NCBI GenBank assembly: GCA_008360955.1
Contig: LUCM01005536.1
Coordinates: 1 to 64,000, forward strand
Direction: 5' to 3'
DNA length: 64,000 nucleotides
Origin: Fasciolopsis buskii
Lineage: Eukaryota; Platyhelminthes; Trematoda; Plagiorchiida; Fasciolidae
Positions 12,701 to 62,556 of the stretch are shown one piece after another (within the stretch, counting starts at the first letter, position 1; each line of letters opens with the position of its first letter). The translations under genes and the position numbers were made by a program. A model generated the notes under the pieces. It was not told the origin of the DNA, made no database searches, and saw only the letters and a program-made list of their open reading frames with translations.

Positions 12701-14581
12701 ATTTTCAGTTAAGCCATGGTGTAAATGTCTTTGGTACCCCTTGCCTCGAGCATTTAGCCGTTAGTCAACTTTCGGGCAGCTGTAAAAGGCTGCCCGAACA
12801 AATATCTTGTATTTTTCTTTGCCCTGCGCAGTCTCCAACCTTGAACTACCAGCAATAGCCTCCTTCGCTCAATTTTGACAATAGCATGAAAGATACAGTA
12901 TTCTCTGCCTTGGCCAATATCTCTGATCCAATAAAACTATGGAACTAATTCGTTAACTTGTAATTAAACCCGAGGCACCTACCCAATATCAGCATTTATG
13001 CGCTGAGTAGGCTGCCCGGCGATTGAGCTGGATGAATTAGGCGCTTAAAAACCTTCATTGTCTATTCCACATATGTCCCCAGTCTGACTTTCAAGAGGAA
13101 GCCGCTTCGCCTTCTGCGTCCCGACTTTCTCTGATCTCTCGGCCTTCCGTTTGTCCTTGGCCAACTGCATCTCCAATCTGGCAATCCCATGCTTACAAAC
13201 ACCTCTGTCCTTAAAGCCAGCATCTTTAAAGTGTTAGGAGGCAGAAGAAATGCTAGTAAATCGAAAAGATTTGAGTGACTCAAAAGTAATCACAATGATT
13301 ACTGCTGAACCATGTTGCATTTCCGCATATTTTTCAGTCATGTATTGTTTTGTTTCTTTCGCAACTTACTACTCTGGGGATGGTAAGCAGCGCGCTTCCA
13401 AAGTAGAATACAAATCCAATAAACAGCAGACTCGCAATTTCCGCGAAACTGGATTATAAAATTAATCAATATGAAATCTGAAACGAATCCGAAATATGCG
13501 AATTAAAGACGAGAACGGGTGTCAAGGTACATGAAAGTGCACATAGTTTACCCCGGTCCCAAAAGATGGATCATCAAGGTCGTTAGGTGACAAACTTTGG
13601 AACAAACGGAAACATATCCAGGTAAGGCACCAAAGGCATTTATGCGGCAGCCATTTCAATAATTCTGATAAAATGTCGCATTTTTAATCTGTTGCCCTTG
13701 ACCTTAAAATACACTGGACTAAATGAGGGGCCGCAACTTATTCTTGGCTCACTTAAAGTTGATTTAGAAGCCACGAATGATCCTGGAACGTCTGTGGTGG
13801 CACAAAGTCGGTACATTGTTGCACGGAAATTAAATCGTTATTCAAATTATCGGTTTTATGATTTCCGACTGACCGAAATCGACCATTTTAGATTGTGGGC
13901 ACCGCTATGTGGGATGTTAGCTTTCTCAGAAACAGTGAAAGAGGAAAAACAGCACGGGTGTTATTGATTGAGCGTTCGACTATGGTATTATGCAAATAAG
14001 TTAATTTGGCTAAACTATCTTGGAGAATGATGTTCTAGGTGAGCCATTTAGATGAGGCGACAACAGGGATATGAACAGCCAACTAAGTGGATGCACGTGA
14101 CCAGCTTTTCAGCCGCACGTACCAAATCATTCAACATTTCTGGAGCTCCGCATAATGCGGTAAAAAGTGCAAGTATATTTGTGAATAAGGTGAGGGTCCT
14201 CCTACTACTTCGGAGGCATCGAGTAAAATTCGAGCGGTGACCACGAGAAGATTAGTATGAATCTGATCTACCAGCTTCTGGCAGAATTTAATTCCAATCG
14301 ATCATTTCAATAGGCGTTAACATATTTGGATTCTTTGGACTAGACAGAAAACAATTTTATTGGTTTGGAGTGAAATGAAAAGGCACATCCTTGCTGTTGT
14401 TCACGGAAAGGCTGCAAAAATAATGCTTTATCATGATGGACATTTTCACAGCACCGAAAATAAGATTGTTAGTACCACGGCGTTGGAAAACCTTGCCTCT
14501 GGTTGCATGAAAGCGTTAACATTTTGTCATTAGATTTGAGAACATGTATGCACGCTGGTCAGACAAAGTGAGGAGGTAGGC
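12701..14581. other. Unassigned intergenic DNA
   Basis: Several frames of 60-90 codons (13062-13283 on minus, 13692-13967 on plus) carry no recognised domain. No tandem repeat or clear LINE motif is seen. Confidence 0.35.
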
Positions 14582-14948
14582 AGAAGTGGAGTAGGTTTGT
14601 GTGGGTATAATGAAGTGGTGGTGGTGTTTCAGAAGGAGGAGAGGAGGAGGAGATTTCTGGCTGGGTAAATACGGACGAAAAGGAGACATTAGTTGTATGG
14701 GGTAAGTCTTTGTGCTTGGGCCGAGGCTTTGGTAAGCGGAGGTTGATGGTAGTGCCGATATGACGGCGGAGGTACGCTTAATGGGGCCATAGACGTCTGC
14801 CTGGAAAATCTTGCGCAACAGCAAAGGCTTCTGGCAGGGAACAGCTGGTGCACTGCTAGGTCTTTTAAATTTGCGATGCGAGTCTGTGGAATTCTTTCGG
14901 CTTGGAAATTCTCTCGGCAGTGTAATTTCGGTCCCCGTGAAACGAAAG
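14582..14948 (-). repeat. 367-bp inverted duplicate (left copy)
   Basis: The reverse complement of this segment matches 19867-20233 without indels (paired coordinates sum to 34815); one substitution was seen by eye. It ends sharply on both sides. Read on minus it encodes TEITLPREFPSRKNSTDSH and, later, SPPPLLLLKHHHHF, with a polypurine tract near 14625-14655 on plus. The right copy lies upstream of a LINE endonuclease, so the segment may come from a LINE ORF1 or leader region. Confidence 0.85.
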
Positions 14949-19866: not shown

Positions 19867-20233
19867 CTTTCGTTTCACGGGGACCGAAATTACACTGCCG
19901 AGAGAATTTCCAAGCCGAAAGAATTCCACAGACTCGCATCGCAAATTTAAAAGACCTAGCAGTGCACCAGCTGTTCCCTGCCAGAAGCCTTTGCTGTTGC
20001 GCAAGATTTTCCAGGCAGACGTCTATGGCCCCATTAAGCGTACCTCCGCCGTCATATCGGCACTACCATCAACCTCCGCTTACCAAAGCCTCGGCCCAAG
20101 CACAAAGACTTACCCCATACAACTAATGTCTCCTTTTCGTCCGTATTTACCCAGCCAGAAATCTCCTCCTCCTCTCCTCCTTCTGAAACACCACCACCAC
20201 TTCATTTTACCCACACAAACCTACTCCACTTCT
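19867..20233 (+). repeat. 367-bp inverted duplicate (right copy)
   Basis: Inverted, nearly identical partner of 14582-14948; the single difference noticed is T here against A in the reverse-complemented left copy, in CATTTTACCC. Flanks of the two copies do not align. The copies are separated by 4918 bp. Confidence 0.85.
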
Positions 20234-21712
20234 ACCTCCCTCCACATGTACTCCCAACACCTCGGGTTACCCACTTACTGGCATAATGAAAAACTTCGTA
20301 GGCCCTCGTGTTTCCTCGTTTCCAGTATCTTCCGCTGTATTTTATTCAAAATCCACTAAAGTGGACCTAATACCATCTGCTTACCCGTTTATTCTCATTT
20401 TTAGTTACTCCTTTCACACCCTTTCTCTCTGATTTTGCAACACCACTCACTACGCTTCGACGGCAAAATAGCCCTCTCTTTTGCGCTAATTAACTGTCGT
20501 TCTGTTCGAAAAATATTCAGCCACTTAAAATGCTTTGCTGTGTTTTCCAAATCAGTTATGATCTTTAACACTGAGTCCTGAATTTGCGAAGATACACCTA
20601 ATAGTGTGACTTCTGTTTCGTTATATCAATCTTTTGGATATACTAGAAAGGACCGCCGCGGAAGCGGTTGCGTTTTGTGTGTATGGCGTGGTCTATCACC
20701 CTGCGTTCTAACGCGTCCTACACTCGAACTGATCCAAGAATCGGCATGGCTTACTTCAGGGGTTCGTCCCGTGTTATGCATAATTCCTGTATCTATCGCT
20801 CTCCATCTCACTGTAATTAGGCTCCCCCTCCTAACGGACGCATTTGAGCCACTTGATTCCGTCCCTTCAAAATCCAAAATCATGCCCGCAGGCTTCAATC
20901 TCCCTGGCGTAACCTTGTCCACGATCACGGCCCCATCAAACCTAATGTCATTCGTCTCCCGCCTGTCTCGCGGGGTTATGTATGGCACGTAACTGCACCC
21001 ACTATAAATAATATACTAGATCTCATCTTTACACATACTGATCATCACACCTTGGTTTACGTTGGGAGTAAGCCTCCAGGGTGTAGCCACCGGGTCGTTC
21101 ACGGTAGAATCCATGGGGATGCCTCTCTCCCTAATCGTCTTATCGACACAACTCACCCACCTTACCTTAAATTGCAGCACCTACCCTCTCTAGTACGCCA
21201 ACTTTACTGAGGAAGCTTTTTCTAGCGACTGACAAACAGAGAGTTGTGAAAGAATGTTTTCGCAACATGGCCAGCTGCATCTCGAAACTGACCATTATGG
21301 AACGAATGATTAAAGACAAGACTTCACCACTTAAGTCCCTAAAAGTCGAATAGGCTAAGTTGCAACAGCTCTATGCACAGCTAAGTGTTTTTTTCAAGTT
21401 TATTCATTTGTACCATCTGTCTGACACTATCTCTCGCCTAAGTGAATCTTTCCTTCGGAAAGAAGAATCTAGGTCGCTGAGTCATTATAATCACCCCATA
21501 AAACTTTCAATGCTATATAAATCAAGATCCCATGAATGTAAGACATCAGTTAACTTCCTAATTTTTCCTGATGGCGAGTCTGCGACAACCACAAAGGACA
21601 TAGTCGGGACGTTCAATCAATATTTTATCCCCTCCATGGCCCCAGTTACAGCCAGTGACCCACCCAGCCACAGAACAGGATTAACCTTATCTTATCTACT
21701 GTTTCCTTTGAC

Positions 21713-22441
21713 GTTAAGACTATTGCACGACACTTAGCGAATTTCAAACCAGGGGATCTCCAAGGCCCTGACGGCATCCCTCCAACAGCTGTCCTTAACC
21801 GTGGCCCCAACTTACCCTCGCTACTGCTCAACCTCTTTACGCTTTCATTTAACTCTGGGGAATTTCCGGTCATCTGGAAGCACTCTGTAATAACCCCTAT
21901 CCATAAGAGGGGGTCTCCGCATGATACGTCCAATTACCGTCCCATCAACCACACGCCTGTTATCTCCATGGTTATGGAGAAGGTGGTAAAACGATCCATC
22001 GAGGACAAACTTCTAGCCTCCAACCTCCTCAGCCCCAAACAGCACGGACTTCCCCGATCTCGTTCTTGCTCCATCTGTCAATTTGACTTCCTGAACCTTC
22101 TAACTAATCTAGCGAACAAGGGTATGGCATTCGCAGCCATCCACCTCGACATGGCAAAGACATTTGACCGTGCCCCTCATCTGCACCTTTTATCCAAAGT
22201 ACGCTCCTTTGGCATCACCGATCCTCTTCTATCCTGGCTCGCGTCTTACCTAATCCAAAGATCACAGGTGGTCTCCCTTGAAGGCATTATCTCCAATCCC
22301 AGACCTGTTACTAGTGGCGTCGTACAGGGCAGCATACTTGGTCCCCTGCTGTTCCTTTTGTACATTATTGGTGCACTAGATTCAATATCTCGCGGCGTCC
22401 TTTTCCTGTTTGCCGATGACAAAAATGGTTTACCCTCTTAA
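21713..22441 (+). pseudogene. LINE reverse transcriptase core, motif C intact, frameshifted after it
   Basis: About 243 codons are open in one frame. Blocks in order are NFKPGDLQGPDGIPPTAV, FPVIWKHSVITPIHKRG, SNYRPINHTPVISMVMEKVV, SPKQHGLPRSRSC, HLDMAKTFDRAPHLHLLSKV (motif A, Asp present), RPVTSGVVQGSILGPLLFLL (motif B) and LFLFADDKNG (motif C, FADD intact). The frame stops seven residues after FADD. Just downstream another frame resumes as VYPLKSNEVSTAVRDIFADL, so a single small indel likely explains the stop. Confidence 0.88.
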
Positions 22442-23260
22442 ATCAAATGAAGTTAGTACTGCGGTTAGAGATATTTTTGCTGATTTGTCTGCCTTACACG
22501 ACTGGTGTACCTCCTGAATGATGAGCTTCTCTGCCAACATGGGCGAAATACTCACATATATATGTACGCTATCTGAAGATTCAATTTCAACACGCTGATC
22601 TCCACAATTCGTGACATTGGTCCCAACCACTCAGACTTTCTAAATTTCAGTCGGCTAAAGCTAGGAGAAATGTAAGTCGGATTTTTCGCACAATGAAACT
22701 ATCCGACAGCATCCTCGGCAGTTATAAAACACACGTTCGACCAATCCTTGAGTATGGCACTATGATATACTTCAGCATGTCAAAGTGAGACAGGATTTTC
22801 ATTGAAATTATTCGGAGACACTTCACCAAGCAAGTGACAGGTTGGTTGACACCTCTAAATTACAACCGACACTGCTCGGCCCTCAAACTCGAGACACTGG
22901 CTGCGGCGACTGAAAATTAACCTGGATTTTCTACGTAACCTGGTGAATAGGCGTCCCTCCTCCGCCTAACCCCTATATTCCCCTCTGCAAGCAACTACAA
23001 ACTCAGTCACGTGTTTCTAGCCATCCATACAGAAATTGCCAAATTCTCTTTAAGGTAACTTTTTTCTCTTTGTTTATGCCAAGCTTTGGAACAAGATACC
23101 CATTAGCACTCTCTGCGTGCAGAACCAATCCAGTTATAAGGCTGCCCTAAATACTTATCCTAGTGTCACCCAAGTCCTTCAGTTGACCAACAGCCATATC
23201 TTGGAAGAGGTTGCTTTTGGGTCAGCCATGAATTTCCAAAAACCTACGCTGGCGCTTTTT

Positions 23261-24186
23261 TCTACCCGATAATCTGTATATTGAAGGCTGAATCCGGTAT
23301 CAGCAAATGCGGAAACAACATGACGTTGGACATAGGACGGAGACAGCCACCTCATGTAAGTTACCGCCCGGTTCCATTTATTTCCTTCCTACCGACCACA
23401 GCCACTCATATTTACCTCTTTAAAAGAAGCAGTGCAATTTTCTTGCCCTAAGAACTTCCAATAATTTGGTAATGGCCTTCTTCCTTTTACTGCGTTCCAC
23501 CTCATGACATTCGCCCTGTCCCGGCTGCTTTACACTTCCCATTCATTCGACCATATAATAATAAATCGTCACGTTTTCTTTACCTGATCCTTCTAAATGG
23601 CACTGAGTAAGTCACAAAATGCGATTAGGCTTCGTAATGGCTTGATCCATGCGCTCAGAATGCGCCGCAAAACAGCAGTTGTGCTCCTCCGTGTGTTTGC
23701 TCATCCGTACTTTCCCCTTTCACAGCATTATGCGGTTAAACTCATGTGGCAAACTGCAACTAGGCCATTGCTCGCGAACGTGGGGAAAACAGACCAGCAG
23801 TTGAGAAAAATTTGCATTACGCGAAAAACTATGATCGGGCATGAGAGCTATGGAAATTTCCTATACGGGCTTAATCACTCACCTGTTGGAGAAAAATAAA
23901 TACCGAAATTGGAACCGGGTTGTGAAGGAAATCGGACATCTTCAGCACAGGTTTGGTTTCCCGCTATCCCAGACCCGATCGAGAGAAACGTGAAACCTCA
24001 AGTTGTCGCGTTCGCCTGGTAAGCCCCTGGTTCTTATGCTTAAGACTTATTGGGGTAGCAGCGCACTAGGCTTTTCACATGTATGGTCCCACCCATCTAC
24101 GACTCCATCCCACCCTCCTGTATTCCATATGCATTCCGGGCGCGTATGCTCAGGACCTCTACAAGAAAACAAATTTCCTTCATTTA
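23261..24186. other. Unassigned DNA left of the inverted repeat
   Basis: A 100-codon open frame at 23597-23899 (+) has no recognised domain. Nothing else is recognised. Confidence 0.35.
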
Positions 24187-24971
24187 CAGGTGGACAGTTA
24201 CCATTCCACCGCTAAAATTGAAGGTGCCAGTGTTCTATCAATATTATTAATTCTAAGATTAGCCGATAGCAAACCCTCCAGCCTTACCATGCAATCAAGC
24301 ATGTCTCTTAAAGTTTTCGAGAAACACACCATATTATCATTAATAATTTTCTTCTGTCAATACGTGAATAATGACGAAAGCCTTTCAGTACTTTCTGCTT
24401 CTCGGTGCAAGATGGGGTCGGGTAAACACTGAGCCGCTGAAATCGAAACACCAAACATCAAAAAACTGTCCATCACAACACTAGTTATACTTTATCCAAG
24501 TAGGTGCATAAATTCGAATTTCATTTATTTGCTTTTGCTATCAGTGTTTGATAATTCTTCCTAAAACGTGTAAAACCTGCTGTTTATAGCCAATAAAGAA
24601 TGTTTTCTCGTGTGTTGCTGTGTCTGATCCACTCGCAAAAATGTGAAAATTCTCATGAAGAGTGGGTAAGAAGAGTTATCCCGATCAATAAGCTGACTGA
24701 GGCCAATAGAGGTCTTGGACAACGTACATCACTTCAGATCATGCGCCAGTTTCGATGCAAATTTTGAGTCAACCCAACTGCCGTGGACGCAGGGAGTAAG
24801 CCTGACTGTTCGTCGAACTCCCGTTTGATTCGGATTATCGTGACAGATTTAAACAGATACTATCCGAAGAAACAAGAATTTTGATAGTCAAATATGCAGG
24901 CATGCGCTGCAACTAAATCAGTCCGGTGCATTTGCGTCCGGTTTTGCCCGTGGTCCTAGTTTTGGGGTATA

Positions 24972-24972
24972 N
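24972..24972. other. Ambiguous base N in the left arm
   Basis: The only N noticed in the window. The opposite arm has T at 34824, which predicts A here. Confidence 0.95.
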
Positions 24973-25615
24973 TAAAGACTTGTGTTCGCCAGGGAGCTGG
25001 GCCAAACAAGGAAAGAATGGAAACTACGCAACTTCTAAGAGATGAAAGGATGCGTCGGCAGTGACAAAATCAGTTGATGATGAGCCATGAGAAAGAAGGT
25101 GAAAGCTGATTGGATAGGACAGCCGAAGGGATGAACGCCGCGTAAGGTAAAAATAAAGTCTGTTAATGGTTGCAAGCGACAACGTCGGCGGCAAAATTCG
25201 GTATTGAAGCTGAGCGCGATGAAAATGTTGAGCTCATCGACAGTGGAAAGAAAGGTTGGAACGCTGGGCAGAAAAAATCAAGAACCAGTTGAGCCGGATA
25301 TAGGTTAACGTATTTTAGCCGTCATTTGAAACTGAAAACATCGAAATTATATGTTGACGTCCCAAAAGAAATAGAATTGTAGTCGAATATTCGAATTCTG
25401 TAGACGTAAAAAGCAGTCCGTCACGACCAACTTCATCCATGTCTTTTTCAAAAAGGAGTGAATTCGTGGCGAAATCACTTATCTCATTGAACTCTGATAA
25501 TTGAAAAGGCGAACGTAGTCCTTAATCGCGGGATGAGCCGCTGATTGTAATCATGCTAAAGAAGAGCACATGTAGGGAGTGCAGTAATATTAATCATAGT
25601 GAATAATTCAAGCTT

Positions 25616-26038
25616 TTAGGGGTATGTGCAGGGGAAGATCACATGTGTACTAGCATAACGCAGTAGAAGCACGGAAAACAAAACCCGGACATGACACTTA
25701 GATGCGTGTGTACGATCAGAATCCGCAATGTGATACGCTAGGCATGAGTTTATCTGTTTTGAATCGAAGCTGGACAACTGTTTCCCAGGATTAAACGAGA
25801 CATTTTGGGAATTACTATCCGTCGTGGATTGCGAGTCATTTCCTGCTTGAATGCCCCGTAGGCTCGCGTAGTATGCGCTAAATGCAGCCAGCAAACGATG
25901 GCGGACATCACGATGGGTCTGAATTCCTCGAAAATCGCGAGGGTTATATGACTGACAAACTAGTTGAACTGAGAAGGTGAGGACCAATATGGATGTGATG
26001 ACGGGACGGAGATGAGTGAAAACCAGACTGAACGTCAT
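25616..26038 (-). CDS. Hypothetical 140-residue protein with N-terminal hydrophobic segment (left-arm copy)
   Basis: ATG-started frame of 140 codons, identical in translation to 33758-34180. Residues about 13-29 (VITSILVLTFSVQLVCQ) form a hydrophobic stretch that could be a signal peptide. The middle is polar and Arg/Ser/Asn-rich (RDVRHRLLAAFSAYY), and a second hydrophobic stretch near the C-terminus contains VRVLFSVLLLRYAS. No family is recognised. It may be a chance frame or one exon of a gene; persistence in two copies is uninformative because the arms are nearly identical. Confidence 0.3.
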   Translation of the reverse strand: MTFSLVFTHLRPVITSILVLTFSVQLVCQSYNPRDFRGIQTHRDVRHRLLAAFSAYYASLRGIQAGNDSQSTTDSNSQNVSFNPGKQLSSFDSKQINSCLAYHIADSDRTHASKCHVRVLFSVLLLRYASTHVIFPCTYP

Positions 26039-26635
26039 ATACGATGAATAAGAGAGCGGAAATTAATAGCGACACCGATCAAATATATAATGTCGAAGAT
26101 GAGGCAGAGTGAAACAGTGAAGGCTGCACCAGGCTACCTAGGAGATGAAATTTCATAAAGAATTGTGGAAGGGGAGGCAATGGAACGCAAAAGAATGTTC
26201 ACTGAACACATGTGGCTGCGAGCGGACTGGACTGGAAGGCGTGACGGGAAAAAAGGAGTTCAGTAAGAATGCGTGATTAGTTAGGGAAGAATGGATAACG
26301 ACGGCAGCTGTTCAAAACGTCAGCATACTTGTCAGCTATGCGTTTGGAAGACAGGAGCAGGCTGAAAACTAGAAGGGTGGGTGGTGAATTGTGTATGGAC
26401 AGTCCGATGAGCTACTTCCCCAGATTGCCCCACAACGCAGCCAGATACTCATCTACTTAAAAAGGGCGGTGTGGGGTCTTCCATTTCGCAGGGTCAGTTC
26501 TGAGTTGATGGCATACATATCCATCCTTCGGAGCCCGAGTTTGCTTTTGTTGCTGATTTCAAACTGATCCCGACAGAATCGTTTGTCATGAAGTAACTCA
26601 CCATGTGATATGATGGCTGAAATTACCATCACAAA

Positions 26636-26770
26636 ACTATGGAAGCACTGTAGAGCTGTTTTATCATTGTTAGAAATCATCAGCAATGCGTAAAAGCCGC
26701 TCCCGAACTGGGATGCGAACCCTGGATGAATGGTTCTGAGTCAAACGCCTTAGCCATTGCGCTACAAGGC
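26636..26770 (-). mobile_element. tRNA-like head with hammerhead relic, Sm-alpha-like SINE (left-arm copy)
   Basis: Mirror copy of 33026-33160, identical as far as compared; see the right-arm entry for its boxes and fold. Confidence 0.55.
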
Positions 26771-27382
26771 AAGCTCTGGGCAGCTTTTTCAGCTTCACTA
26801 CATGATGTTGTAATTTTCCGTCACCGATTTGCACGGCCACAGGCCGCTACCTCACAGGAATCGGCCACAACTGATAGAGGACTTCCCATGCAGGCAGCCT
26901 AAATACGACGATACCGTCATCCGTGCGATGTAGACAGATTCAACTAGGCTGGGTACTCTGAGGACAAAGAGGTCACCAGAATCGAGAAAACTGGAGAGTG
27001 CGGATCAAGATGGCCAGGTGGAAGGAGTAAAGGAAATCCCGAACCTGTCCTTAGATGAGTTGTTCGCGAAGGGAGAAGCTAGCTTTGCTAGTACCAGACG
27101 GAGAGTAATGATCCACAGTGTGTTCAGAGTAAGCAAACGGTAGAGGAATCTATGAGAAAGGACCCTGTGATGAGGAGACCAACATAAATGGAGATTTATC
27201 GCGGTAATACCCGCCATAAAGCCCAGCGTTTTCCCGTTATCACGGACCATAATATCATGTGGTGCTGTCGGCTGGGATCTCAGTTTTGGAGCTCCTACTG
27301 TAATAATCACTAAAATTCTAAACCAACTTTGTACAACTGAATCTTTGAGGGGTAGGGTTCCTACATACGAGTTTGGGCTGGT

Positions 27383-29640
27383 ACGGTCAGCATTCTCCGG
27401 TCTTTCGGACCATATCGTTCTGTACGATGCTTTTCGAATACCTGCCGACTTTTGGATGACTGGTGGATTCTCCCTTGATCTGGATGTAATTCTGCCTGCC
27501 ATTCGAGGATGTTACTGTCGAGAAATACTATCAGACAACGCAGAACGTTCGAAGATTAACCATCAGCATTTAGCAGAATAAGACTTATGCCACTATCGTG
27601 TGCTAGCCGACTATTCGATTAGGTCTATCCGGCAGCCTCTTTATTCAATGTCACCTACTATCCTGAACGCCTAGTGTCAAAATTCCTTTAATTCGGAGAA
27701 TGACCATTTTCAGCTCTTTATCCCCGTGAACTTCGAGCCAACCTCTCCTACCCAAACCAAGTTTGCTTCTGCACCTCCCCCTTTCGCAAAATACCATAAT
27801 ACTTCTCTCTCAAGGCCAAAACCGGGCTGTTGCCCAAATGATCATAATGACCTTGATGGGTACTCTAATTCTCTATGAACTACCCAGTATTTACTCTCCG
27901 AGAATGTATTCACTACCCACTTTCGTAAACCCGCTCCTAATTCAAAGATGGCTAGAGCCCACCGACCAAATGCTTCGTTAGCCAATGTTCTTGAATTCCT
28001 ATCATAACACTAAGTAACAATGTATAGTCAAAACTTACCGACATCAAGATCCATCTTTGGAAGCCAACCGCAATTTATTTCCCAGCTGTTCAACCCAAAT
28101 TACATCGTTGATTTCCTTGAATACCCCTACTCCCATGGATCTCTACCATCGGGCAAAATCTTGGTTCCTGTTGCCGCTTGAACGGCTCGTGCACCCCCTC
28201 AAATTCCTCACCCAATCTGCTGACGAAAATCACAACTTGCAACAACAAGGATGACAGGATACAGCATATAATAATGATAAAACCTTACTTCTTCGACGTT
28301 GCTAAGGACATCCTAAGATAGTGTATTCGAGAAAAGTTATAGCACAACATTTCTGTTCACCAACAGCCTCTCATTCCAGGTTACCGCCAGGTGCATATGA
28401 ATGCAATCAGCAGTGTTGGGGATTCCATATTCTCTGTGCGAACTGTTTCATAAAATATCCTCCAGAGGGTTTGGAGTAATCATGACAGCATTCCCCCACC
28501 TTCTTTGGCATTTTATCGGTATTTGTTAGATGAGGCTATCTTTCGCACTTTGCATGGCGTTTCCCTTGGTTTTCACTAATTCCCACCAGTTATGACATTC
28601 TCACCAACCTTCTTTCCTTTATTTCAACTATTCTGCCCCTTACGTGACGCTCTAGTCTTATGGGGATCACGGACATATCTCGACATCCACCATTGGGCTA
28701 CGGTCATGTTTTGCACCATCGATGCACATATTTAGGTTACTTAAATTCGAAATGACTGGCAGTCCGCTGCTGCCGAACATTCCTATCAATCCCTGTGCAA
28801 TACTGCAGAACGAGTTTTCCAGTTTTGTTTTCTGCGTGTTGCTCTGCATCGCCTGATTATACTTTATATTATACTTCCCGAATGACCCAAGGTTGCACTC
28901 ATTCCCTCATCCCTTTTGATTTCTGTTATTCTTGTTTCCTCTGCATCATCCCAGGACAGTTTTGATCTTGCCTTGCGAATGCCACCCGCAAATCGGGAAA
29001 TATACTTTATCATCATTAGTATTATTATCGAATACCCTCACAAATGTCTACCACCGGTATACAATACTTGCACTGCATACGCGGACCAGGCAACTCCATT
29101 CACTAACCAAAAAAGGGTAAGTGAACCGGAGCAAATTATTCCTTCGTGAGGGTGCTCTTACCCAATACCTGCAGCCATCATGCCCCCACTCCTCATGGGC
29201 ATCTAGCCACCTACGGCTCATCACCCATTCCCCAACCCCCACTGCCCACACAAATCTCATCCCTACACATTACCGTTCGCTCTCACACCTAGCAAGCCTC
29301 TCACAGGCTGCTTCGCTCCCAAAAACAGCGACCTTCCCCATACCAACCACTTGTCTTGGTAACTACCGTCCCCCACAAGTGGTTTAATCTCATGCCCTCA
29401 TCGAAATTTCCTATCACACCCACAGCAACCGCCAAGTTGCACAAATTTAATCACTGCCGCGTTTTACTTCATATTCATGACAGCCGGTCAGAGTGATGTT
29501 ACTGCTACTTTTGTTGATGACGGAAACTTTCGCTGAGGCAAAATGTCATTACGATAGATTACACTACCCTAGTCCATTATTTACCGGTGCACCACCATTC
29601 CGCCCCAAGGCAACACCCCATCACTCAAACGATGCGACGC
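27383..29640. other. Inverted-repeat spacer, 5' part
   Basis: Non-repeated relative to the arms. Plus-strand frames rich in Pro, Thr and Ser (29121-29387, with SPTPTAHTNLIPTHYRS) may be a LINE ORF1 or leader region, because an endonuclease follows near 29720. No gene recognised. Confidence 0.35.
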
Positions 29641-32340
29641 CCTCTCAAATAAAGGTCGCTTATTGGAAGCACAAAAAAACAGGAAAAATTGGCTGAAAGT
29701 CAAAATGGTCCCCTTATTGTCGCCGTTAATTCCATATGATCGTTATGTGTTAGAAAATCTGCCATCTCTTCTTTCACTAGCACTCTTCACAAATTACGAC
29801 TTTATACTAATCACCGAGACTTGGCCAAATGGTGACACTCTAGGCGATGCAATTGCTATTCCTGGATAACAGTTACCCGGGAAAGGTGGCTAATCTCAGC
29901 GGGGGTTTGGCTGCCTCGTGTAGGTCTGCAATTCAATACCAGCCTTATTGTGCCAAGACCTTCATTTAAGTCCTATCTAAGGTGCCATGTGGCATAGGGC
30001 TGACATTAATATAGACAAACCTTCCAAAGCGATGCGTGTGCCACCTCCCAGGCAACTGTGGGAACGACTTCCTTCCCTAAACTAAAGCATTTAAATACCC
30101 TTTCACCTTACCAGGTCCCAATGTCGTGACGGAGACGCCAAAGCTCCAGGCACTGGCTGATCACCCTTTATCACTTCTAACTTTTTATTCTCTCTTTCGC
30201 TAGAATTCAGCAAGGTGTATGGACACAGCAAGCAGCCGATCCGACAAGTGAGCGAAATACCCTGGAGCAATTTTTACGATTGGATTAAACGCATGTTCGC
30301 ACATCCGTTGAAATCGGTTTCAAGGAATGTGAATACCTGCCGGTGAGCCGCATTTTCATGCTACCTTTCCAAAGTAACATCATCTCCAAACTATAAGCCC
30401 TAAATTTGAGCAAACTCAGATCGTCTTACAAATCTGCTCTGCAGTCGTAATTAGGAATCTTTCCTATCAAGTGATGTGCTAATGGCAAGTGACAAGCTTT
30501 ACTCAGTCCTGCACGGATGCCTTGGTAGTATCAAGCCAGCCACCGTTCACTCGAGGTCCTCCAAAAACAACGGCCATTACCGAATAAGCTGCAAAATCAC
30601 CAAACTTTAAAAACGCTTTCTAAGAATCAGGGACTTTTCTTTATTTCACGAGTCAATTGCCTGTCAGAACAACGAAAAACGATATCACCCTTATACTAAA
30701 AAGCAAGAGCTATGTGCTCTGAACTAGCTCAATCCACAAGCAGTTCCGGCGCAATGGATTAAACCAAGAGTCGATCACACCAAGCTATCGGATGCGCGCA
30801 TCCGCCACCTCAACTATAACAGTACTTAACTCGACAACCCACGAGAGATCGCTCTGGCATCTGGCATAACCTCACCCTTGTTTCTTACAACCGACAGTAA
30901 CCTTACAATCCCTTATCCTCCACGCCTGACCTCGGAAACATTCTAAGCGGTTTCTTTCTTACTAGTTCCATTTCCGTTAAAAACAAAAGTCAGATATCAC
31001 CCTGGACCAGACTAGTCACCTAAAGCTATATTCACACTAAGGGGGGGGAGATATTTCAATACCGCTGGGAAACACACTGAACCACTGTGTCCAATGCGGT
31101 ACTTTTCCTTGCCGGCGGGAAACGTCTATCACAATTTCCATATATAATAAAGGCGCAGTGCGTCCACCAGCCAATTTTAAATTCCTAAACCGTACCCCTG
31201 TTTTCTTCAGAATCATGGACAGCTTGATTAAAAAGCAGCTCATGGTATGTTATAGGCCAATAACTTGTCAAAGCTGGTCAGTATGGTTTTCTCTAAAATA
31301 AATCCTGTGCTTCGTGCATGACTGGTCACCTAGATACAAAAGCAAAGGCTGCTATTATCGGAAAGTCGATGATAGTAATCTATTTGGATGCGACGAAAGA
31401 ATTTGATAGATCATCCCACCATAGGCCGATAAAAATGTCAAATCCTATGAGATCATCGGTCCTGTACTCCCATGTTTCACGCCATATTATTCACCCAGAA
31501 ATTATGTGGTGCGAGCAAATCGTTTTCACTTCCTCTCCCAGACCAGTAACTAGTGGCATAACCCAAAGCAGTGTACTGCTTCTTTTTCACGCAAATAATG
31601 TCTTCAAATTTGTCGGAAACGGTGCTCCGTTCCTATTCGTCGATAACCCCAAAATCGTTTACACTTTTCAGCCGGATGCTATAGGCCTCACAGTCGCCGA
31701 TGTAATCCAAGAAGCAATCTTCGCCTACACTTCGGACAGCGAATGGGCGATGAAGTTCACAGCCGGGGAAAGCCGCATTCTGTGCTAAAATAGCAACCGA
31801 TCCAGAGGAAGGCTTAAAATGGAAGTCAAATCATCCCCACTTGAAACAAGCTTCGAGACATAGGTCTAAACCGCTTCTGCAAATTTGACTTTTTGGAAGA
31901 AGCAACTACGGAGACCCGTAAAAGGGTTGGATTGCTACACATGACCTCAAAGCTGTACCCCAGCAACTGAAAGTCTTCAAAACACGCCAGACTCACTCTA
32001 GAGTATTATTCCTAAGTCTGCTCTACTATGAGACTGCAACAAAATCGCCATCGATAACGTTCAGCGGCATTTGCAAAGCGGCTAGTAAGCATTTAGTCAG
32101 AGCTAGGTAACAAGAAATGATTCACAATTTGAGTCTTTAACCTATGCAGGCTCATCTTGTGAATGACAGCCCGATTTTCTTCAGTAGTCTGACAAGCGGT
32201 TAAGTTGCATTCAAACACTGCAGTTCAGAGTTCAAAATCATTACTCCATTGGAATCGACATACCAAACGTCAAACCTGACAAAAAGCATAGGCATTAGAG
32301 CAATCATTTTATTGTTAAATGTTCTTCCTTCTGCAACGCA
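29641..32340 (+). mobile_element. Decayed LINE in the spacer (element B)
   Basis: An endonuclease piece at about 29780-29869 reads NYDFILITETWPNGDTLGDA, with the catalytic TET motif intact. A pre-palm block at about 31060-31260 is broken by stops. RT then runs 31318-31788 with VIYLDATKEFDRSSH (motif A), SPRPVTSGITQSSVLLLF (motif B) and FLFVDNPKIV, where motif C FADD has become FVDN. Next comes YTSDSEWAMKFTAGESRIL, the 'DL..W....gM.Fsa.KS.iL' block. The motif B region resembles element A (RPVTSGVVQGSILGP), so the two are probably related families. Confidence 0.75.
31318..31788 (+). pseudogene. RT palm of element B with inactivated motif C
   Basis: A 156-codon open frame holding motif A (YLDATKEFD), motif B and a mutated motif C (FVDN in place of F/YADD). 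Loss of the second catalytic Asp makes activity unlikely even where the frame is open. Confidence 0.75.
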
Positions 32341-33025
32341 TTGCCACAGCGTTAGGCCTCCTATCATCATTTATCATCGCGGTTAAAAACAAAGTCTGGA
32401 GACAGTTGACTGCACCAGCCCAAACTCGTATGTAGGAACCCTACCCCTCAAAGATTCAGTTGTACAAAGTTGGTTTAGAATTTTAGTGATTATTACAGTA
32501 GGAGCTCCAAAACTGAGATCCCAGCCGACAGCACCACATGATATTATGGTCCGTGATAACGGGAAAACGCTGGGCTTTATGGCGGGTATTACCGCGATAA
32601 ATCTCCATTTATGTTGGTCTCCTCATCACAGGGTCCTTTCTCATAGATTCCTCTACCGTTTGCTTACTCTGAACACACTGTGGATCATTACTCTCCGTCT
32701 GGTACTAGCAAAGCTAGCTTCTCCCTTCGCGAACAACTCATCTAAGGACAGGTTCGGGATTTCCTTTACTCCTTCCACCTGGCCATCTTGATCCGCACTC
32801 TCCAGTTTTCTCGATTCTGGTGACCTCTTTGTCCTCAGAGTACCCAGCCTAGTTGAATCTGTCTACATCGCACGGATGACGGTATCGTCGTATTTAGGCT
32901 GCCTGCATGGGAAGTCCTCTATCAGTTGTGGCCGATTCCTGTGAGGTAGCGGCCTGTGGCCGTGCAAATCGGTGACGGAAAATTACAACATCATGTAGTG
33001 AAGCTGAAAAAGCTGCCCAGAGCTT

Positions 33026-33160
33026 GCCTTGTAGCGCAATGGCTAAGGCGTTTGACTCAGAACCATTCATCCAGGGTTCGCATCCCAGTTCGGGAGCGGC
33101 TTTTACGCATTGCTGATGATTTCTAACAATGATAAAACAGCTCTACAGTGCTTCCATAGT
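33026..33160 (+). mobile_element. tRNA-like head with hammerhead relic, Sm-alpha-like SINE (right-arm copy)
   Basis: TAGCGCAATGG (33032-33042) fits a Pol III A box and GGTTCGCATCC (33075-33085) fits a B box with one change, at tRNA-like spacing. No convincing anticodon stem is found, so it is not a functional tRNA. About 20 bp further on is a degenerate hammerhead (33107-33151). A tRNA-like Pol III head followed by a hammerhead is the known plan of Sm-alpha SINEs in schistosomes. The 3' limit is not defined. Confidence 0.55.
33107..33151 (+). ncRNA. Degenerate hammerhead ribozyme motif
   Basis: GCATTG (33107-33112) can pair with CAGTGC (33146-33151) as helix I, with one G-T pair. CTGATGA, the conserved core, follows at 33113-33119. 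Stem II is weakened, and the GAAAC core strand reads AAAAC. The expected cleavage triplet GTC before CAGTGC reads CTA. With core and cleavage site both mutated it should be inactive. The mirror copy is 26645-26689 on minus. Confidence 0.5.
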
Positions 33161-33757
33161 TTTGTGATGGTAATTTCAGCCATCATATCACATGGTGAGT
33201 TACTTCATGACAAACGATTCTGTCGGGATCAGTTTGAAATCAGCAACAAAAGCAAACTCGGGCTCCGAAGGATGGATATGTATGCCATCAACTCAGAACT
33301 GACCCTGCGAAATGGAAGACCCCACACCGCCCTTTTTAAGTAGATGAGTATCTGGCTGCGTTGTGGGGCAATCTGGGGAAGTAGCTCATCGGACTGTCCA
33401 TACACAATTCACCACCCACCCTTCTAGTTTTCAGCCTGCTCCTGTCTTCCAAACGCATAGCTGACAAGTATGCTGACGTTTTGAACAGCTGCCGTCGTTA
33501 TCCATTCTTCCCTAACTAATCACGCATTCTTACTGAACTCCTTTTTTCCCGTCACGCCTTCCAGTCCAGTCCGCTCGCAGCCACATGTGTTCAGTGAACA
33601 TTCTTTTGCGTTCCATTGCCTCCCCTTCCACAATTCTTTATGAAATTTCATCTCCTAGGTAGCCTGGTGCAGCCTTCACTGTTTCACTCTGCCTCATCTT
33701 CGACATTATATATTTGATCGGTGTCGCTATTAATTTCCGCTCTCTTATTCATCGTAT

Positions 33758-34180
33758 ATGACGTTCAGTCTGGTTTTCACTCATCTCCGTCCCGTCATCA
33801 CATCCATATTGGTCCTCACCTTCTCAGTTCAACTAGTTTGTCAGTCATATAACCCTCGCGATTTTCGAGGAATTCAGACCCATCGTGATGTCCGCCATCG
33901 TTTGCTGGCTGCATTTAGCGCATACTACGCGAGCCTACGGGGCATTCAAGCAGGAAATGACTCGCAATCCACGACGGATAGTAATTCCCAAAATGTCTCG
34001 TTTAATCCTGGGAAACAGTTGTCCAGCTTCGATTCAAAACAGATAAACTCATGCCTAGCGTATCACATTGCGGATTCTGATCGTACACACGCATCTAAGT
34101 GTCATGTCCGGGTTTTGTTTTCCGTGCTTCTACTGCGTTATGCTAGTACACATGTGATCTTCCCCTGCACATACCCCTAA
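33758..34180 (+). CDS. Hypothetical 140-residue protein with N-terminal hydrophobic segment (right-arm copy)
   Basis: Same predicted protein as the left-arm frame. The ATG lies after TCATCGTAT; no splice acceptor or poly-A signal was specifically identified. A putative signal peptide, a basic Arg/His stretch after it and a Ser/Asn-rich middle would suit a small secreted protein, but no KR/RR-bounded amidated peptide is present, so a neuropeptide precursor is not supported. Confidence 0.3.
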   Translation: MTFSLVFTHLRPVITSILVLTFSVQLVCQSYNPRDFRGIQTHRDVRHRLLAAFSAYYASLRGIQAGNDSQSTTDSNSQNVSFNPGKQLSSFDSKQINSCLAYHIADSDRTHASKCHVRVLFSVLLLRYASTHVIFPCTYP

Positions 34181-35609
34181 AAGCTTGAATTATTCACTAT
34201 GATTAATATTACTGCACTCCCTACATGTGCTCTTCTTTAGCATGATTACAATCAGCGGCTCATCCCGCGATTAAGGACTACGTTCGCCTTTTCAATTATC
34301 AGAGTTCAATGAGATAAGTGATTTCGCCACGAATTCACTCCTTTTTGAAAAAGACATGGATGAAGTTGGTCGTGACGGACTGCTTTTTACGTCTACAGAA
34401 TTCGAATATTCGACTACAATTCTATTTCTTTTGGGACGTCAACATATAATTTCGATGTTTTCAGTTTCAAATGACGGCTAAAATACGTTAACCTATATCC
34501 GGCTCAACTGGTTCTTGATTTTTTCTGCCCAGCGTTCCAACCTTTCTTTCCACTGTCGATGAGCTCAACATTTTCATCGCGCTCAGCTTCAATACCGAAT
34601 TTTGCCGCCGACGTTGTCGCTTGCAACCATTAACAGACTTTATTTTTACCTTACGCGGCGTTCATCCCTTCGGCTGTCCTATCCAATCAGCTTTCACCTT
34701 CTTTCTCATGGCTCATCATCAACTGATTTTGTCACTGCCGACGCATCCTTTCATCTCTTAGAAGTTGCGTAGTTTCCATTCTTTCCTTGTTTGGCCCAGC
34801 TCCCTGGCGAACACAAGTCTTTATTATACCCCAAAACTAGGACCACGGGCAAAACCGGACGCAAATGCACCGGACTGATTTAGTTGCAGCGCATGCCTGC
34901 ATATTTGACTATCAAAATTCTTGTTTCTTCGGATAGTATCTGTTTAAATCTGTCACGATAATCCGAATCAAACGGGAGTTCGACGAACAGTCAGGCTTAC
35001 TCCCTGCGTCCACGGCAGTTGGGTTGACTCAAAATTTGCATCGAAACTGGCGCATGATCTGAAGTGATGTACGTTGTCCAAGACCTCTATTGGCCTCAGT
35101 CAGCTTATTGATCGGGATAACTCTTCTTACCCACTCTTCATGAGAATTTTCACATTTTTGCGAGTGGATCAGACACAGCAACACACGAGAAAACATTCTT
35201 TATTGGCTATAAACAGCAGGTTTTACACGTTTTAGGAAGAATTATCAAACACTGATAGCAAAAGCAAATAAATGAAATTCGAATTTATGCACCTACTTGG
35301 ATAAAGTATAACTAGTGTTGTGATGGACAGTTTTTTGATGTTTGGTGTTTCGATTTCAGCGGCTCAGTGTTTACCCGACCCCATCTTGCACCGAGAAGCA
35401 GAAAGTACTGAAAGGCTTTCGTCATTATTCACGTATTGACAGAAGAAAATTATTGATGATAATATGGTGTGTTTCTCGAAAACTTTAAGAGACATGCTTG
35501 ATTGCATGGTAAGGCTGGAGGGTTTGCTATCGGCTAATCTTAGAATTAATAATATTGATAGAACACTGGCACCTTCAATTTTAGCGGTGGAATGGTAACT
35601 GTCCACCTG

Positions 35610-37976
35610 GGATGCTTATCCTCGGTCACCTAGAATTAGCCTCGACTGATCGGAGAATCCGTTATGTAGCAGCGCTCTCATCTGACAGCACTGTGAGCGT
35701 CTATATTAACAAATTGAACTTTTCGACTAGGGGAAACGGCCGAGCAGGTATTTTAATTTTGACTTTATTCTTAAGTTGTGCAATGATTTTTAATATATTG
35801 CGATTTAGTGAATGCTTTACTTCTGCAAATGCAATCCAGTTTTGCAACACCACATAGTTGCCATTCTATCGCTGTTCTTTGGGATCGAATTCTCTTTCCC
35901 TACGACTTAATTGCGGCGGGAACGAGCTTGCTGGGATCCCAAGAAGCATCTCCCACATGGCTCTGATTGAAGCAATCTGTAGCTAGTCCCAGCCGTGCAA
36001 ATGAGGTTTGGGCAGCTCTGCTAATGCTTCTCCTGTGTACTAGCACGAAATTTCCCCCCAAGTCTGGAGTAGATTTGGCCAATGAAACCCCAAAGATCCC
36101 AGCGTTTTCCAAGCGTAACCAATTTTCTCACTAGCGTCCAATACCCAGGAAATTTCCTTATTCTAGTGTATGCAGCAGCAGGGAACAGGAGAAAATTTTA
36201 AGTACTCTTATTTTCAAAGCCAAACCAATTTTCGATAAATTATATTTATTCGTAAAAATGAAACTAAGTTACGTAAAAGCTTAATCTGTTTTTATTTGGA
36301 TTTTGGCTGAAGAACGCCAGTTCGAAGGAGTTAGTATATGTGAAAAGTGTACTTGGGTGCGACGTAGGTCAAATAGCAATCCTTAAACATTTTTCCTTTA
36401 GAAGCACCCTATACAGGTTTTTGGCTCGTCACCAGCTTAGTAACATGGCTTAAATCGCGCATTTACAGATAAGTAGACAAACACCATTCACGGGTTTTCC
36501 GGTTCGAGGGAAATAGTACCGCTACACACGTGGCACTGTGCACGTGGTTCGCGGCGCACCCGTAAACCCATTAACGGTGCACCTCAGGGCAACAACAGTC
36601 TACCTGCACACGTGGCTGCTATCTCTGCTCACCAAGCCGCCGCCGCGGGCTTCACGGAACCAAATACGCACGAGCCTGTAATTGTCCCTTCAAGTTAGCA
36701 CAGACGCATGTGGTAACTTTAAGGGCGGTTAAGTGCAAATACTCAGCCAGTTGTAGATCCAGGCAAAATGTACAATGGCCTTTGTGGGCCCATCAATCTT
36801 TTCTTGGGATCACGCGGACTAGTACTGTCGCCCCATGTCAAGACATTTTTAATCAGTCCCGAACTTGGATTAGGCCAAAAGAGATAAATTAATCACAGCA
36901 CTGTGGGGTCTGAGGAACGTCTTTTAGGAAGAACAGCAAAAAGGTCTTTGATAACGCTCGTGAATGAAATATTTGTCGCTTAATAGCCGAAGGCATGATT
37001 TGCTGGCTTCCTCTCATCGACCTGAATGGGAAAGGACGCAGGGTTGCTGGAATCGTACAATTTTCTTGGAGAGCCGTGCTTCGGACTGAATGGTGTCCCT
37101 TGGCCTGAGAATGGTGATCCAGCCCAATCTTCGAGGATCATCGACAGGAGTTCGCTTTCATTTATGAATTGGCCCCAGCTCTTGTTCAATCCATATTTTG
37201 ACCTCGTTTTAGGACAAGTGAACTCACTATCCGTAGATGCGCAAAAGCTTTGCGCATTCAGATGGTTCCAGGGCTGTCAATTAAGGGACAACTTTTAGCG
37301 ATAATTCCGCTACTTCTTGCCCTGCTAAGGAAATTTAAAAGCACTCGTTTAGGGGCATTCATCGAAACGACGAAGAATTCACAAGGTTATATTCCCGTAT
37401 CTGACACTACTAACTTATTGTTGATAAGCGCCTGTAGACAGTAGCCGTGCTGGAGATTAGACACAATTTCATGATCACCAAGTTTGTTTAGGATTGCAGA
37501 TTTAGTGATACCGTGAAAGACCTTGAGTTTTGACAGGAGGAATTGGAGGAAAAGTTATTCCAACCTTTTGGATATGTACCTGAGGGCAAACGTTTACCAG
37601 TGAGATACTTAAGAAACAGTTAGCACATAAGTGGCTTCTTTGAAAATGAAGAAGATGAGGGAAGCAAAGCAATTTTTATTGAATATGATTTTGTTTCTTT
37701 CGCGATCTGTGGAGTTTACCCCGCTGGTGGTTACGGAAGAATAGCCAAATAAGCGACTTACGAGATCTTTCAACATATCTTAGACTGTTTAGGCCGTGAA
37801 TTGATTATATGATTGGTTACAGCTATTCAGAGCGCCACTTGGTGTTTAGACCAATCACTCGGAAGTTTCTATGGCCTGAATAACGCGTAACATATTTAAA
37901 ACTGAAGCGCACATGATGGATTCTCGCGCGAAGTTCATGTTTACAGCTCCTTTGAGGTGACATTTCCATCCTACCG
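35610..37976. other. Unassigned DNA and presumed AGBL5 upstream region
   Basis: No exon or repeat recognised. At about 36520-36660 there is a GC-richer stretch with CACGTGG and CCGCCGCCGCGG, the most promoter-like part upstream of AGBL5, about 1.3 kb from its start codon. No TATA box or initiator could be assigned. Confidence 0.3.
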
Positions 37977-38389
37977 ATGGAAGTCAAAATTGGAAATCTG
38001 ATATTCTCCTCCAATTTCGATTCTGGAAACTTGGCTCGAGTGGAGCGCGTCTCTCCGGAATCACTGGAGGAGCAATCTACCTCATTGTCTAACTCATCGT
38101 TTAAAACCGGCCAGGTTCATAAGTTTTCAATAAATGGCAATGCTTCGGGAAACATTAGCATTTTTGATTTGAGAGTCGATCATGAGTTCAAAATTTGGAC
38201 TCGCCCGGATTGTTCTGGCACAATTTTTGAGAACGGCAACCGTACATGGTTCCATTTCTCTATAAGGGGTTATTCCCCAGGAAGGCTTCTGAGGGTAACA
38301 ATAATGAACCTCAACAAACAGGCAAAAATATACAGTCAAGGCTACTCTCCAATGTACCGAGTCTGTCACGCTACTCAGCCATTTCCAAG
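37977..38389 (+). CDS. AGBL5: AGBL5 exon 1 (start codon and N-terminal beta domain)
   Basis: 413 nt. The ATG is chosen because [20 protein letters not shown] aligns from residue 1 with animal CCP5. It continues through [20 protein letters not shown] and [15 protein letters not shown]. The donor is TTCCAAG/GTTAGT, leaving AG to be completed by exon 2. An in-frame reading past the donor stops after four residues. Confidence 0.95.
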
Positions 38390-44300: not shown

Positions 44301-45623
44301 AGGAGTAGAAAATCTACACTGTGCACAATGCACCCTCAATTGATTGTTATACACACAGAAAAATTGCCTCATTTTGTGCAAAACAGATGAACCGAATGGG
44401 GTTTATGACATTTTACCGGGTATTTTTAAGAATTTCCAGGAATTTATTGAACGCTTTGTCATTCCTTCAGAAGCTCGGATACTACAATTACTAGCAGAAA
44501 AAAGGCAAACGTGTACCATATGTGGTGAAATTAATGCAATTAACATTTCAAAGGTAGAATGGGCGATACGGTAAAATTTCAGTGCCCAGCCGTGAGAGTG
44601 CTAACTGATTAACAAAATCTGTTTTATGCAAAGTATCATGTGCGGAAAATTCCAGTGGGCTTATTCCAAATAAAACTCAAAGATATAGAAAGGATTTATT
44701 TATTTTTAGTTTGTAAAGAACGAAAAAATTTCAAAACGTTTTGAGAAGCTACAGGACTTTATTTCAATTCGATCTTTAGATGGCAACGAATTCGAGACAA
44801 ACCAGCATGGAACATGACGGAAGGACAATTTATGCTCACTTTTATTCATCGATTTTCCGATTTGAAGGGCAGCACAACTTTCTTCGCCTTTTGTTATCCT
44901 TGGACCTATTCGGACACACAGGCACAACTTTCTTTCCTGGAAACATTCTTTCATAGTAAGACAGCATCACTTCAATTGTCCTTTAACCATTTACGCCAAT
45001 CGACGGATCCTGGTGATATTTCTGAGTCCGTCCTACTGGGCTCAGACGAAATATCACTGTCCGATCGCCTGCTCGACAAAGTTTATTTTCATCGAGAATT
45101 GCTTTGCTACAGCCTAGAAGGTCGCCGAGTTGATCTTATAACACTGACAGACTGGTCTGGTCGTTTGGAAATTCGTGAGGAGTATTTTGATCCACTTCTC
45201 TTTCCAAACCGAAATCAAAAGAGACCATGGAAGTTCATTGGAAAAAAGGTGAGCACAGTTATTATTCCAGGGCATTTAATCTGGTTGTGAATTTTTATCC
45301 AATGAACATAAACAGGTGGGAATGCTACTGAATGCGAGGAGAAAACATAAGTGCGAAATTTGTGGAATTACTTTTTACACCTGCATTTGTTTGTGCAGCG
45401 GCATAACTTTGATTCCGATTGATAATTAGGTAGATAGATAGATAGACGATAGGCATATAAATGGATAGATTGATAGAAAGATAGGTAGAAAATACATAAG
45501 TGTGTAAAGGGATAGATAGATAGGGATGAAGACTAATAAATGGATGTAAAATTTGATCGATAGATAGATAGATAGACAAACAGACAGATAGATAGATAGA
45601 CAGACAGATGGATGGAGAGATAA

Positions 45624-45701
<78 letters not shown>

Positions 45702-62047: not shown

Positions 62048-62389
62048 GTGAGCGCGCTTCTCGTTTCCTCTGAGTGCTCCATGCTTGTTAATTGCATTTA
62101 GTATTTCTCACACGAACTCGAGGGAAAAGTCGGACAGATAACACCTTTGGAGCATGCAAAACTTTGGCACACGGATTATTAAAAAGAAGACTGAAGGATC
62201 ATGCTCATATAAAACCCGTAGATCATAGTCTCTTTACGATGATTCGATCATTGCCAGGCATACGAAAAGTCTGCGACAGCAGTTTGAAAATGCATAGTTT
62301 CATGAATATTGTGCGGAGGGAAGCATATCCGGAAAATTGGATTACCAACTGCACTGAGCTAATTTTAAATAAATGTTTTCATCTTTCAA
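62048..62389. other. AGBL5 intron 6, start
   Basis: A plus frame at 62092-62481 has no CCP5 similarity. A splice-like TTTAG at 62101 followed by YFSHELEGKVGQITPL soon meets a stop and does not match the expected next block. Confidence 0.4.
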
Positions 62390-62556
62390 CTTTAACTTCC
62401 TTTATAAATGAAATAGCAATATACATCATTTTTCAGGAAGGGGGCCGCGGCCAACAGAGGGCTGCCGAGTGGGGAAGCTGAACGGCAATGGGAGAATTCG
62501 AAACCCCGGCCCTCACATCCAAAGTCCGCCATCTTATCCGCGTGACCACCACCGGA
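62390..62556 (-). mobile_element. tRNA-derived SINE, copy 2
   Basis: The reverse complement of this segment aligns with 56345-56510: GGATAAGATGGCGGACTTTGG in the head, a B-box-like GGTTTCGAATTCT, a middle TTGGCCGCGGCCCCCTTCCT and a TGATGTATATTGCTATTTC body, ending AAAGGAAGTTAAAG. Open frames on both copies show similar peptides ([11 protein letters not shown] and PFLKNDVYCYF) because of this homology, not because they are genes. Confidence 0.72.

Follow-up and report, generated by a model that had tools for sequence, protein, structure and literature searches.

An inverted pair of near-identical 3.2-kb arms in a Fasciolopsis buskii contig and the recurrence of such pairs in sampled sequence

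The assembly of the trematode Fasciolopsis buskii (GCA_008360955.1; 703,196,239 bp in 6974 contigs) carries two nearly identical 3196-bp arms, inverted with respect to each other and separated by a spacer of about 5 kb, on contig LUCM01005536.1 (C3288, 195,282 bp). The window analysed here is the whole stretch from position 1 to 64,000 of that contig. We consider that the left arm arose by local copying between inverted sequences lying close together, through template switching or gene conversion, and we give this interpretation a probability of roughly 0.55. The pair belongs to a known kind of structure and is probably real; the unexpected part is the recurrence of near-identical inverted pairs in other sequence sampled from the same assembly.

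Anatomy and polarity of the inverted pair

The first-pass annotation of this window had described the two arms, two differences between them and an abrupt loss of similarity at their limits, and this description was borne out, the last point at the outer ends, beyond which no homology extends. Each position of one arm pairs with 59796 minus itself in the other, and all positions agree except a T/C substitution at 24341/35455 and an N facing an A at 24972. The longest exact inverted match reaches 2410 bp, against 20 bp or less in shuffled windows (20 trials), so a chance origin is excluded. The pair is interstitial, flanked by 24 kb and about 160 kb of contig, and has the form of a spacer-bearing inverted duplication, in which two near-identical inverted copies flank an unduplicated spacer; no terminal deletion, translocation or ring was found beside it within the contig. 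At the inner ends, the arms reported by the repeat-finding tool run 23 bp further (24187-27405/32391-35609) and take in seven more mismatches. This inner fringe, one of four junctions tested (P = 8e-5 ungapped, 0.005 gapped), represents a short, though imperfect, inverted homology at the junction of spacer and arm. The outer breakpoint is possibly linked to the terminus of a short repeat at 35612 (Table 1).

When the full arm was searched against the assembly, with 40 of 6632 candidates scored, full-length copies were found at two places only among those candidates, which argues for a local duplication rather than an ordinary young transposon family. Pieces of the arm match elsewhere at 66-85%, the arm being a mosaic of several old repeats. 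No open reading frame (ORF) longer than 148 aa lies wholly inside it, nine scanned ORFs in or touching the left arm gave no Pfam match, and Rfam and tRNA scans gave nothing either. Target-site duplications and terminal inverted repeats were sought with no convincing result, the longest flanking match being 6 bp, in the random range, at the arm of a second pair that starts at 14569.

The polarity of the pair can be read from old repeats of the same genome. A query spanning the right inner junction (31400-33400; 40 of 4724 candidates scored) retrieved C3949:39946-41421, which aligns unbroken to 31402-32854 (69%, E 1e-145) and thus passes through 32413|32414. Judged by this alignment, the inner junction of the right arm is old, and the arm is native there. 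On the other side, the window presents the old repeat pieces D, M and A in the order D, left arm, M, A, and contig C2963 holds D, M and A consecutively; by arithmetic from the alignment, the distance from D to A minus the left arm is 987 bp here versus 1017 bp on C2963. Taken together with the native right inner junction, this interruption suggests that the left arm entered an older repeat copy, which lost little sequence at the site, and is hence derived. The M match is a weak link in this order, with a score of 146 versus a best of 141 among 100 shuffles. Aligned alone, M had a global score of 204, with 254 for the best shuffle; among 200 random segments of the window, 2 did as well, and same-strand segments reached 218 and 209. 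A joined-flank alignment with lenient gaps was uninformative. On C2963 (50071-51050), about 20 bp matching window positions 33527-33546 stand on both sides of M, as if the M segment had been inserted there long ago and had duplicated its target.

Table 1. Positions of the inverted pairs, their parts and neighbouring features; window coordinates unless a contig is named.
Feature	Position	Strand	Remark
Left arm	24187..27382	-	apparently derived inverted copy of right arm
Single N in left arm	24972	.	collinear with one right-arm A; replaces exactly one base
Inner fringe, left side	27383..27405	+	16/23 bases match right-side fringe
Spacer	27406..32390	.	one full-length copy among scored candidates
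Inner fringe, right side	32391..32413	-	pairs with 27383..27405
Right arm	32414..35609	+	probable native donor copy; mosaic of old repeats
High-copy repeat within right arm	32885..33220 (mirror 26576-26911)	.	tRNA-like by eye; ~80% to other copies
Short repeat family	35517..35612	.	several copies finish at 35612, 3 bp beyond outer end of arm
Old repeat piece D	23873..24167	+	finishes 19 bp before outer edge of left arm
Old repeat piece M	27535..28280	+	starts ~150 bp inside inner end of left arm; weak match
Old repeat piece A	28350..29038	+	D-M-A order also on C2963
Second pair, left copy	14569..14948	+	whole 380-bp old interspersed repeat
Second pair, right copy	19867..20246	-	98.9% like left copy; spacer 4918 bp
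Inverted pair, window	24187-27382/32414-35609		at least 97% identity
Inverted pair, window	14569-14948/19867-20246		at least 97% identity
Inverted pair, C2963	47745-50314/58340-60910		at least 97% identity; no N in or beside
Inverted pair, C6344	548230-549587/552271-553628		at least 97% identity; no N in or beside
Two inverted pairs, C132			at least 97% identity; one arm cut by tile edge, ends at 2556-base gap
AGBL5/CCP5-like carboxypeptidase, first coding exon match	37977..38375	+	
AGBL5/CCP5-like, further matches	44778-45272, 51262-51615, 57562-57795, 61853-62080		

Recurrence of close inverted pairs and a model of copying

A self-comparison of 300,698 non-N bases, the window included (matches of at least 120 bp, pairs within 20 kb), drew partly on C6344, C1583, C1736 and C132, chosen for carrying the high-copy repeat of the arm. 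At identities of at least 97% it found six inverted pairs, their copies 1.9-8.4 kb apart, and one direct pair. The latter consists of nearly identical copies, offset by 943 bp, with one N at 569312 between them (C6344:568370-570000), and looks like an unmerged overlap of two contigs. Below 97%, nine inverted and 13 direct pairs were counted by hand, with three self-palindromes left out and some pairs non-independent as members of the same family. The excess of inverted pairs in the near-identical class gives a one-sided Fisher P of ~0.013 when the direct overlap is left out and ~0.05 when it is kept (computed by hand); omission of the 3.2-kb pair of the window and of the C2963 pair leaves four inverted to no direct (P ~0.05). 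Judged by coordinates only, C5125, C3976 and C4810 each carry inverted matches of equal score 8-13 kb apart on the same contig, and direct same-contig matches lie 8.5 kb apart on C4810 and 48 kb apart on C3828. On C1583, a 235-bp imperfect hairpin (430498-430733) finishes directly in front of a single N and resembles a contig end folded back on itself.

One of the six pairs overturns the earlier statement that all repeats flanking the arms are heavily decayed, since the window also contains the near-identical copies at 14569 and 19867. Apart from an overlapping 18-bp direct match at 58366-58394, all exact repeats of at least 18 bp in the window, after a low-complexity filter, belong to these two pairs. 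Among the genome copies of the 380-bp repeat (40 of 399 candidates scored), the 38 others are all 77-80% alike, versus 98.9% for the two window neighbours; 37 of these 38 start within query positions 1-11, and all 38 finish at 375-380. The boundaries of the pair are thus the own ends of the repeat, as expected if an old copy was rewritten by its inverted neighbour and not if a fresh segment was copied. Older inverted pairs in the window (1360/3464, 9546/11409 and 56361/62382; 73-80% alike) look like ordinary dispersed repeat pieces and were left out of the near-identical class.

The distribution of differences along the arms also bears on conversion. In five pairs, 20 of the 29 differences fall within 30 bp of an arm end, versus 2.6 expected, a figure inflated by chance matches at alignment ends. 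The clustering is strongest in the C6344 pair (5/5), where matching runs of 17 and 22 bases past the mismatches are not due to chance, and nil in the C2963 pair (0/4). For the 3.2-kb pair, recent insertion and long-kept identity are both possible. The first-pass annotation had offered youth, gene conversion or duplication by the assembler as explanations of the likeness; polarity, recurrence and the 380-bp pair now favour inverted copying over youth alone, and the assembler is retained as a candidate cause.

The sequence shows the arms, their copy number among scored candidates, the polarity at one junction (on one contig) and the recurrence of such pairs in the sample; from this we infer that template switching or gene conversion acted in vivo, its return step and its timing included. 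A strand of the left locus would pair, through 27383-27405/32391-32413, with opposite-strand sequence about 5 kb away, copy 3.2 kb of right-arm sequence and then return to its own locus, leaving an interstitial inverted duplication around a single-copy spacer. The same copying between repeat copies already inverted would homogenise them, as may have happened at 14569-14948/19867-20246. More speculatively, and with distinctly less confidence than we place in the local event, nearby inverted sequences (within ~10 kb) in this fluke may keep rewriting each other, whereas direct repeats do not, with occasional inverted insertions and a large near-identical class genome-wide.

Known systems and competing explanations

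Several described systems resemble the pair in part. Human fold-back inverted duplications have inverted copies, an unduplicated (disomic) spacer of 766-70,466 bp (median 3428) and exact inverted homology of 2-8 bp in 13 junctions (PMC3907307). The pair described here shares the inverted copies, the unduplicated spacer, of about 5 kb, and the short inverted homology at the spacer end; the fold-back cases, however, are large and usually lie beside terminal deletions, whereas here 3.2 kb was copied interstitially and the same locus rejoined, and their homology is exact rather than imperfect as in our fringe. Local jumps and templated insertions in cancer likewise copy a nearby template, often inverted, and some classes return to the host locus (PMC7025897), but these events are somatic and human, while ours are recurrent cases in the assembly of a species. 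Gene-converted palindromes of mammalian X chromosomes also have inverted arms more than 99% alike (PMC8981503); they are conserved between species, whereas the present pair is known from one assembly. Chimeras of multiple displacement amplification are inverted, mostly less than 10 kb apart and show short junction complementarity, as here; they are, however, single in-vitro junctions (PMC1855051), whereas our copy runs into other sequence at each of its two ends. None of the papers listed by the literature searches was recognised as concerning this locus, which was not searched for by name.

A number of points weigh against local copying in the cell. All the evidence is the sequence of one assembly, and the sample is small and partly selected, the window and C2963 having been included on account of their inverted pairs. 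A single contig, C3949, carries the case for a native right arm, and a query at the outer end of that arm gave no copy deciding that junction. A match between the start of the spacer (27387-27452) and the right arm, next to D, supports the interruption in one direction only: it ranked fourth in the reciprocal scan, the left-arm flanks are not alike there (P 0.39), and the C2963 copy of D has no match at that place. Outside the fringes, divergence within the near-identical pairs hardly exceeds what two alleles might show. In the 300.7-kb sample no local inverted pair lies between 93.3% and 97.5% identity, a gap that a steady process in vivo should fill unless arms are kept alike or lost. Finally, spacings bunch around 5 kb (4918 and 4985 bp) and 8 kb (8025 and 8360 bp; 8.1 kb on C5125 and 8.3 kb on C3976), and chimeras of whole-genome amplification have the very geometry of our pairs.

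The last two points lead to the explanation that we regard as the main competitor, although less likely than local copying, namely that in-vitro amplification chimeras, or else scaffolding or gap filling, made the inverted copy and the other near-identical pairs. Of 475 chimeras from amplified DNA, 406 had the inverted form, and in 337 of these the two parts lay less than 10 kb apart; complementarity reached 21 nt (PMC1855051), and all six near-identical pairs that are not contig joins are inverted at comparable distances. The bunched spacings could likewise reflect library insert sizes, one arm on C132 finishes at a gap, and the N at 24972 is a warning, because both other single Ns in the sampled sequence mark contig faults, a join at C6344:569312 and a hairpin contig end at C1583:430733. 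Against such an origin, the left arm meets its flanks at both ends without an N, and these flanks seem to have been adjacent in one old repeat copy, albeit with the weak M, so that an artefact would need two jumps; the N of the left arm stands for exactly one base of a collinear copy; the pairs on C2963 and C6344 are free of Ns; and the 380-bp pair is probably too diverged from its relatives for a simple mix-up of short reads. A fault of mate-pair orientation was set aside by reasoning only, as it would yield direct rather than inverted copies.

Biological alternatives to local copying fare less well. An isolated, recent inverted duplication, whose arms are alike only through youth and which belongs to no wider process, would agree with the one substitution and with the two copies among scored candidates; one difference in 3195 positions translates into ~90,000 years (2,300 to 504,000) at a rate borrowed from Fasciola gigantica, a different species (PMC8519440). 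We nevertheless find it improbable, given the other near-identical inverted pairs of the sample, one of them coextensive with an old repeat. Alternatively, one transposon could have inserted twice independently, once in each orientation; the short repeat family that finishes 3 bp past the outer arm end speaks for this, but the scored candidates hold no third full-length copy, convincing target-site duplications or terminal repeats are wanting at the arms, several old repeats are pieced together in the arm, and another genomic copy (C3949) runs from the spacer into the right arm without a break, all of which makes such an origin very improbable. We attach even less weight to a functional hairpin locus, producing small RNAs or regulating the AGBL5-like gene downstream: the first coding exon match of that gene does follow the right arm after 2.4 kb, yet the arm is decayed repeat sequence, with no match among the Rfam families or, for its nine scanned ORFs, in Pfam.

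Should the pairs prove real, the formation and continued likeness of inverted repeats in an animal genome could be studied in them as a natural test, since old repeats of the same genome render polarity readable. If they are artefacts, the assembly may contain many false inverted duplications, which would mislead studies of gene copy number, small RNAs and structural variation.

Neighbouring gene and other repeats

The AGBL5/CCP5-like carboxypeptidase gene beyond the right arm has its nearest relative by score in Paragonimus westermani (62% over 89% of the first query), followed by Clonorchis sinensis (61% over 58% of the second query) and Schistosoma mansoni (57%); these relatives point to a trematode genome. 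A GATA microsatellite of 38 copies (45555-45706) adjoins an AGBL5-like exon.

The spacer has 46 other matches at 67-80% from ~29035 on, and its decayed stretch 31104-32079 is related to 21863-22831, which bears reverse-transcriptase sequence. An open 260-aa reverse-transcriptase fragment (RVT_1) occupies 21659-22438, and its best relatives include two database proteins attributed to Streptococcus dysgalactiae (59% and 57%), apparently bacterial records contaminated with eukaryotic sequence. At 56361-56518 and 62382-62539, two old, oppositely oriented repeat copies have a start that is tRNA-like by eye. Matches to the spacer repeat in opposite orientations, with one query end common within each contig, occur at C2742:10727-18542 and C5743:74715-85095; on these coordinates alone, they may represent further inverted pairs.

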